Assembly: GCA_025355465.1 (NCBI GenBank)
Contig: JANXZO010000059.1
Location: forward strand, 1-64,000
Reading direction: 5' to 3'
Source: Bacteroidales bacterium
Lineage (GTDB): Bacteria > Bacteroidota > Bacteroidia > Bacteroidales > FEN-979
DNA length: 64,000 bases
Shown: one piece after another, positions 331 through 1,599 of the stretch
Position numbering within the stretch: the stretch's first letter is position 1
Layout: every line of letters starts with the position of its first letter
Made by a program: the position numbers and the translations under genes
The notes under the pieces: generated by a model
Database searches by the model: none
The model's input: only the letters and a program-made list of their open reading frames with translations
Told to the model about the DNA's origin: nothing

Positions 331-368
331 TCTCAATACATTGAGAAAATTTACTCAGTATATTGAGA
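331..368. promoter_or_regulatory. Two tandem palindromes, probable operators
   Basis: TCTCAATACATTGAGA (331-346) is a perfect 7-bp inverted repeat around AC. ACTCAGTATATTGAGA (353-368) is a second, slightly imperfect copy. They start 22 bp apart, about two helical turns, and lie immediately upstream of the -7 element at 376-383. This is the layout expected of a dimeric repressor binding twice across the promoter of the downstream ATPase. The regulator is not known. Confidence 0.6.
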
Positions 369-375
369 TATTTAT

Positions 376-383
376 TATTTTTG
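376..383 (+). promoter_or_regulatory. Bacteroidota -7 promoter element for the DUF4143 ATPase
   Basis: TATTTTTG matches TAnnTTTG and lies 16 bases before the ATG at 400, which predicts a very short leader. The expected -33 region is occupied by the palindromes at 331-368. No TTTG is seen there. Confidence 0.55.
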
Positions 384-399
384 TGAAAAAAGTAAAGAG

Positions 400-1599
400 A
401 TGTTTAAGCGCTCGTACTATAAGATTATCGAACAGAGACTTGGTTTTTCGAGACAATTTATACAGGTCCTCATGGGACCAAGACAGGTTGGAAAGACAAC
501 TGTAATCCGCCAGTTACTTGAAGATTACCCTTTTCCGTGGCACTATGCCTCGGCCGATGACGCCACATCGACACAATGGCTGGCCCAGCAATGGGAGACC
601 ATCAGGATCAAACTGAAGGCATCCGGAGCAGAGGAGGTTTTACTGGTGATTGACGAGATTCAGAAAATAGCGGATTGGAGCAACCAGGTAAAAATTCATT
701 GGGACAGAGACACGTTTGATAGAATCCCGGTAAAAGTCATTCTTCTGGGATCGTCACAACTATTAATTCAAAATGGATTAAGCGAATCCCTTGCCGGCAG
801 GTTTGAGGTCCTTTATCTGCCGCATTGGTCGTTCAGGGAAATGAAAGAAGCCTTCAATTTTTCCCTGGATGAATTTATCTGGTTTGGCGGATATCCTGGT
901 TCATCGTCCCTTATTGGAGATGAAAAGCGATGGAAAGATTACATCCGGCATTCGCTTATCGAGACCACGCTGATGAGAGACATTCTCTTGCTGGCCCGAA
1001 TTGATAAACCGATTCTGTTAAGGAATTTGTTTGAGCTCGCTTGTTCCTGGTCAGGTCAAATTCTTTCATATAACAAGATGATCGGTCAGTTGCAGGATGC
1101 CGGGAATACGACCACCCTCGCTAATTATCTGCATCTGCTGAAAGGAGCAGGACTTGTCACCGGATTGGAAAAATTCTCACAGAATTTAATCCGCCAGCGT
1201 TCGTCCAGCCCGAAGTTACAGGTATTCAACACAGCATTAATGTCAGCCCTGAGCCCGCTCACCAGGGACGAATCCAGGAAACAGCCGGATATCTGGGGAA
1301 GATGGTTCGAGTCGGCAATCGGTACGCATCTTCTCAACCATTCTCTGACTGACGGTTACGAGCTCAATTATTGGAGGGAGGGGAACCATGAAGTTGATTT
1401 CATTCTTCATAGAGGAAAAAAAGTCATTGCGATGGAGGTGAAAAGCGGCAAAGTGAGGTCAATCAAAGGGATTGATGTTTTCACGAAAAAGTACAACCCC
1501 GCAAAAGTTCTCCTTGTCGGAAGAGAAGGGATTCCGGCTGAAGAATTTCTGATGTTATCACCGTCTGTGATGTTCGACAAAGTAAATTCCTTTACTTAA
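400..1599 (+). CDS. AAA-type ATPase with C-terminal DUF4143 domain
   Basis: This 399-residue protein belongs to the AAA_14/DUF4143 group of bacterial and archaeal ATPases, whose role is largely unknown. Walker A is GPRQVGKTT at residues 26-34, and Walker B is LLVIDEIQKI near residue 88. The C-terminal third has the DUF4143 layout, including GRWFESAIG and a stretch reading EVDFIL, then EVKSG. That D...ExK spacing resembles the PD-(D/E)XK nuclease fold. There is no signal peptide or membrane segment, so it should be cytosolic. The gene stands alone, with its own promoter and twin palindromes upstream. Start chosen at ATG 400 because it places the ATP-binding domain at the usual distance from the N-terminus. 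The family assignment is secure; the function is not. Confidence 0.85.
   Translation: MFKRSYYKIIEQRLGFSRQFIQVLMGPRQVGKTTVIRQLLEDYPFPWHYASADDATSTQWLAQQWETIRIKLKASGAEEVLLVIDEIQKIADWSNQVKIHWDRDTFDRIPVKVILLGSSQLLIQNGLSESLAGRFEVLYLPHWSFREMKEAFNFSLDEFIWFGGYPGSSSLIGDEKRWKDYIRHSLIETTLMRDILLLARIDKPILLRNLFELACSWSGQILSYNKMIGQLQDAGNTTTLANYLHLLKGAGLVTGLEKFSQNLIRQRSSSPKLQVFNTALMSALSPLTRDESRKQPDIWGRWFESAIGTHLLNHSLTDGYELNYWREGNHEVDFILHRGKKVIAMEVKSGKVRSIKGIDVFTKKYNPAKVLLVGREGIPAEEFLMLSPSVMFDKVNSFT

Follow-up and report, generated by a model that had tools for sequence, protein, structure and literature searches.

Which protein reads the two palindromes that precede the gene of a DUF4143 ATPase in a Bacteroidales bacterium, and to what effect, is the question raised by the locus considered here, which lies at the beginning of a 64,000-nucleotide stretch of DNA analysed as a whole (the window). 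With a probability of roughly seven in ten, the palindromes constitute an autoregulatory operator bound cooperatively by the winged-helix (wHTH) domain of the ATPase itself, which would limit its own transcription, as judged from sequence comparison and a structural model.

The promoter region of the ATPase gene

The gene (400-1599, plus strand) encodes an AAA_14 ATPase of 399 amino acids with a C-terminal DUF4143 domain, assigned by matches to Pfam PF13173 and PF13635 (84.5 and 97.1 bits against curated cut-offs of 27 and 28.1) and to the PADLOC profile PDC-S01 (E 1.7e-175, residues 1-389). The preceding gene (3-200) is cut because the contig begins at base 1 of the window. Past the ATPase gene lies an open reading frame of 236 amino acids without a Pfam match (1644-2354), followed by the gene of a MarC family membrane protein.

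Palindrome 1 (327-350, unstranded) possesses the core CTCAATACATTGAG at 332-345 with the half-sites CTCA (332-335) and TGAG (342-345), and its arms reach 11 bp in the form ATTTTCTCAAT-AC-ATTGAGAAAAT. Palindrome 2 (354-367, unstranded; CTCAGTATATTGAG), with the half-sites CTCA (354-357) and TGAG (364-367), is a 22-bp direct repeat of palindrome 1; both are near-perfect, and orthologues keep the register of both. The -7 promoter element of Bacteroidota has the consensus TAnnTTTG, which we take to be matched by TATTTTTG at 376-383 on the plus strand, an element that keeps its position with respect to the half-sites in close orthologues (L010-L017). The preliminary description of this DNA, which had placed two palindromes 22 bp apart, a distance that holds between their centres, before the gene and a -7 element 16 bases ahead of the start codon (ATG at 400), is borne out in these respects; the element does not, however, directly abut the palindromes as had been stated, but begins 8 bp past palindrome 2.

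Considered alone, the site in the window is only moderately unlikely, since dinucleotide shuffling of the 200 bp upstream yields an equally good pair of palindromes in 3 of 1000 trials at a spacing of exactly 22 bp and in 30 of 1000 at spacings of 18-26. It is the comparison across orthologues, rather than the single sequence, that settles the reality of the predicted site. A search of the genome (3.54 Mb) for the 14-mer, allowing up to one mismatch, finds a pair at this locus alone, and single matches occur in three other places, at least one of them inside a Cas9-like gene. A random scatter over the chromosome, named beforehand as an observation that would speak against an operator, was thus not found, and this search together with the footprint upstream of orthologues rules out chance occurrence. 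The sole other near-copy in the genome that is itself palindromic (GTCAATATATTGAC; G000:C44 22686-22699, L005) lies in a gene with a Cas9-like start (MKKILGLDLGTNSIGWALLD).

A role of the palindromes as hairpins in the leader RNA is barely credible. Several orthologues do have repeats between promoter and ATG, but in the window the palindromes precede the -7 box and should not be transcribed, the palindrome region has neither an Rfam match nor a terminator, and direct repeats spaced by whole helical turns fit DNA binding.

Conservation of the site before orthologous genes

Orthologues of the ATPase show a patchy distribution, being present in 32 of 149 relatives, and occur furthermore on 16 contigs labelled Bacteroidota, Marinimicrobia, Alpha- and Gammaproteobacteria and others, and, at 52% identity, on a plasmid of Thermus oshimai. 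In the DNA upstream of these genes, the half-sites TTGAG and CTCAA alternate approximately every 11 bp, with TTGAGTAAATTTACTCAATATATTGAGTAAA as the best form and the variant TTTTTACTAG..CTAGTAAAAATACTCAA in the Thermus copy. Strict half-sites among 40 orthologues number 89 in the upstream 150 bp versus a single one in the downstream 150 bp. Equally, in a comparison of 137 family genes, the proximal upstream DNA is similar above background in 47% of pairs at 45-60% protein identity and in 82% of pairs at 60-80%, with the region 121-200 bp upstream at background (1%) in both identity classes. The putative operator is, on this sequence evidence, the conserved portion of the DNA upstream of the ATPase genes, a site at the own promoter conserved together with the gene. 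Absence of the motif before orthologues, the other finding that had been said to weigh against an operator, was not encountered: the motif is present in the expected register, which supports an operator with phased sites as originally suggested.

The position of the core promoter relative to the half-sites, on the other hand, differs among orthologues. The half-sites of the window and of its close orthologues stand upstream of the -7 box; elsewhere the first repeat itself forms TAnnTTTG at its junction (L020-L022, L026, L029, L047), or TAnnTTTG stands ahead of the repeats (L034-L036), and on an alphaproteobacterial contig (L051) the half-site TTGAGT is found 17 bp ahead of TATAAG, a spacing which, as read from the sequence, is sigma-70-like. 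A core promoter that varies by host around half-sites that stay fits an operator. These arrangements also bear on the alternative that the ATPase, once bound, does not repress but either activates its promoter or organises the DNA for a different purpose, such as a nuclease target or a decoy. The location of the half-sites in the window is one also used by activators, and the protein contains nuclease-like residues (see below); repression nevertheless fits better where the repeats of other orthologues include the -7 box or sit between box and ATG, and the alternative is considered quite unlikely.

The ATPase as the probable reader of the operator

Among 38 orthologue loci, the ATPase gene is the only one that recurs, other large clusters being shadow frames within it, and a nearby partner regulator was therefore rejected. 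As the motif has no other recurrent neighbour and its variants follow the putative recognition helix of the ATPase, the regulator would be the ATPase itself. The preliminary description had expected that the operator might lead to its regulator or reveal autoregulation; it points to the ATPase, the putative binder, and autoregulation is probably right.

A full-length AlphaFold2 model based on 42 orthologues (pLDDT 90) predicts an AAA core, a winged-helix-like middle and a domain of PD-(D/E)XK pattern. The core carries the Walker A motif GPRQVGKT (residues 26-33; 475-498, plus strand), of which G26, G31 and K32 are invariant in the 42 orthologues (alignment A1). The winged-helix-like domain, the proposed operator reader, spans residues 204-275 (1009-1224, plus strand) with helices at 204-216, 224-230 and 237-249 and strands at 253-256 and 272-275, and contains the proposed recognition helix GNTTTLANYLHLLKG (residues 235-249; 1102-1146, plus strand). 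When modelled in isolation, the domain is not predicted with confidence (pLDDT 59), and this result was left unused. The full-length model aligns through residue 286 with archaeal AAA+wHTH ATPases; PABY2304 (2qen, Z 16.3) and SSO1545 (2fna, Z 15.6) are the nearest solved folds to residues 1-286, and the best Foldseek rows are Orc1/Cdc6 and DnaA-type proteins with Orc1/Cdc6 on top. A sequence search recovered no relative of solved structure.

The C-terminal part of the protein displays E331, D333, E346 and K348 (1390-1443, plus strand), the first three invariant in the 42 orthologues. D333 and E346-x-K348 form the PD-(D/E)XK pattern on adjacent strands of the model (330-338 and 341-348), and 97 of 104 full-length family proteins possess this pattern. 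By residue pattern, the protein is predicted to be nuclease-like.

The recognition helix and the half-sites vary together. GNTTTL is found in nearly all genes of the TTGAGTAA type; GNTAT and GNTST pair with TGCGTAA (L034-L036), GNTVT in L030 pairs with TTAGTA, and GNVTT pairs with TTGAGAATTTTGT or TTGAACATTTTGT (L032, L038), a link that is not one-to-one, as L033 combines GNTVT with TGAGTA. The more identical two proteins are in residues 232-246, the more similar their motifs tend to be: once the rest of the protein beyond the winged helix is corrected for, the partial Mantel r is 0.42 (p 0.001). When 65 segments of twelve residues were scanned, second and third place went to 235-246 and 241-252; residues 61-72 of the AAA domain rank first or correlate equally well, which makes the mapping to the helix suggestive rather than exclusive.

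A separate host regulator, such as a dimeric HTH repressor encoded elsewhere, might bind the palindromes, with the ATPase gene merely as its target. Cooperatively spaced palindromes are typical of many regulators, and copies of the motif exist without an adjoining intact ATPase gene. Such a regulator is unlikely, however, given that no gene co-occurs in the 38 loci, that DUF4143 genes within one genome carry different repeats, that the motif tracks the helix of the ATPase, and that it accompanies the gene in several phyla and on the Thermus plasmid, where a shared host regulator is improbable.

Copies of the motif away from an intact gene

In a search of the 149 relatives for the two-repeat pattern, with the middle half-site read by eye, the motif was recovered at orthologue genes in 18 cases; 12 more occurrences, spread over 11 genomes, have no intact orthologue beside them. 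The twelve lone copies may be relics or other targets. Two of them (L191, L188) are relics of truncated genes, since approximately 15 first codons of the ATPase are kept (MFQRPYYSKIKQRLGL, MNYKRAYLISLRDK), and on this ground the gene seems often to be lost while its operator stays. No common downstream gene was seen among the lone copies inspected, and with two of the copies being gene relics, a wider regulon was rejected as their explanation. Copies without an intact ATPase gene beside them comprise L182-L192, of which L186 lies approximately 200 bp ahead of an AbiE-like gene pair. At L193 (1862-3214) the motif stands approximately 130 bp ahead of a gene for a divergent ATPase of DUF4143 type (34% identity in the AAA part), which has perhaps replaced the original gene.

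The lone copies and the patchy presence of the gene could also suggest a mobile element that bears the ATPase and has the repeats as its ends or target sites. This is highly improbable, as the repeats occur before the gene only and not after it, no transposase recurs in the 38 loci, and the two truncated genes keep their first codons next to the motif. Transposon-type repeats at both gene ends were not seen.

Repeats across the DUF4143 family

The genome from which the window derives harbours eight DUF4143 genes, most of them with repeats ahead of the start that differ in sequence. Within the phylum, a strong direct or inverted repeat (z above 3, 110 bp ahead of the start) precedes 62% of 71 DUF4143 genes, and in 110 control genes the share is 18% (p 5.5e-11); these fractions are approximate because start codons are predicted and z-scores derive from simple shuffles. 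A gene with a strong repeat is included in 23 of 31 sequence clusters, and the repeats differ by clade. The spacings of direct repeats peak at 22-23 bp (12 gene counts, 3 in 146 controls) and at 32-33 bp (18 gene counts, 5 in the same controls) with little in between, which is two and three turns of DNA; the clade of the window itself largely contributes the 22-bp peak, and several clades the peak at 32-33 bp. In another sample of 32 genes, made up of four plasmid genes and 28 taken from eight genomes that belong mostly to other phyla, inverted repeats are enriched (p 0.002) and direct repeats are not. Other DUF4143 clades (L063-L131, L194-L223) carry single long inverted repeats spanning approximately 30-37 bp, which end at the start codon or close to it (as in L068, L200, L208 and L214) and probably represent a different operator layout.

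Proposed mode of action

The two palindromes would form the operator of the ATPase gene as four half-sites (TTGAG/CTCAA) of alternating orientation, which would lie on one face of the DNA because about one occurs per helical turn. The winged-helix domain, presented by the ATPase as a dimer or an AAA+ oligomer, would bind these half-sites cooperatively at the promoter, and the bound ATPase would limit transcription of its own gene; in place of the dimeric repressor suggested in the preliminary description, four half-sites at about one per turn may, with an AAA+ ATPase, indicate a higher oligomer. We infer that the ATPase contacts the DNA itself and that it represses instead of activating, and we likewise infer its oligomeric state and any control by nucleotide or infection. 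A tentative and rather doubtful extension is that every DUF4143/PDC-S01 ATPase is its own sequence-specific repressor, with a private helix and a matching operator of two- or three-turn spacing in each clade, possibly held at the promoter until infection or a change of nucleotide, so that regulator, sensor and effector would reside in one polypeptide.

Relation to known systems

PDC-S01, a phage-defence candidate in PADLOC, ranks fourth in abundance among prokaryotic defences, with 9986 counts in archaea and 29,494 in bacteria (PMC12988326). As for most PDCs, validation is pending and its defence activity is that of a candidate only (PMC12988326). The protein of the window matches the PDC-S01 profile over its whole length and equally combines an ATPase with a fused PD-(D/E)XK-like domain (PMC12988326). 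In a limited search of the literature on PDC-S01, DUF4143, COG1373 and AAA_14, nothing was found on regulation or self-specific repeats. While operators as such are a known, ordinary kind of thing, a family-wide, clade-specific self-operator of DUF4143/PDC-S01 ATPases seems, within this limited search, to be undescribed. With a predicted DNA target beside each gene that varies with the protein, DNA-binding specificity becomes directly testable, and the many paralogues offer a protein-DNA code. Furthermore, cloning of DUF4143/PDC-S01 genes without the native promoter may remove an essential control.

PABY2304, SSO1545 and Orc1/Cdc6, whose folds come closest to residues 1-286 of the model, share low sequence identity with it (12-19%). 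Orc1/Cdc6, a replication initiator, binds DNA via a module of the AAA+wHTH kind, and we know of none among the three that acts as its own repressor. Self-specific tandem palindromes over the own promoter are a feature of the operators of toxin-antitoxin systems and of restriction-modification controllers. An example of an autoregulated toxin-antitoxin operator is AbiE (PMC3985639). In those systems the regulator is the antitoxin or a small controller, whereas here the enzyme and the proposed regulator are one polypeptide. RptR represses the promoter of a phage-defence island by binding a series of direct repeats that contain a short palindrome (PMC12255303). A repressor at a defence-island promoter with a series of repeats is the likeness to the present locus, where the ATPase is the proposed counterpart; RptR, however, is a small dedicated regulator encoded beside its target, whereas here the ATPase itself is proposed to fulfil this role with repeats that vary by clade.
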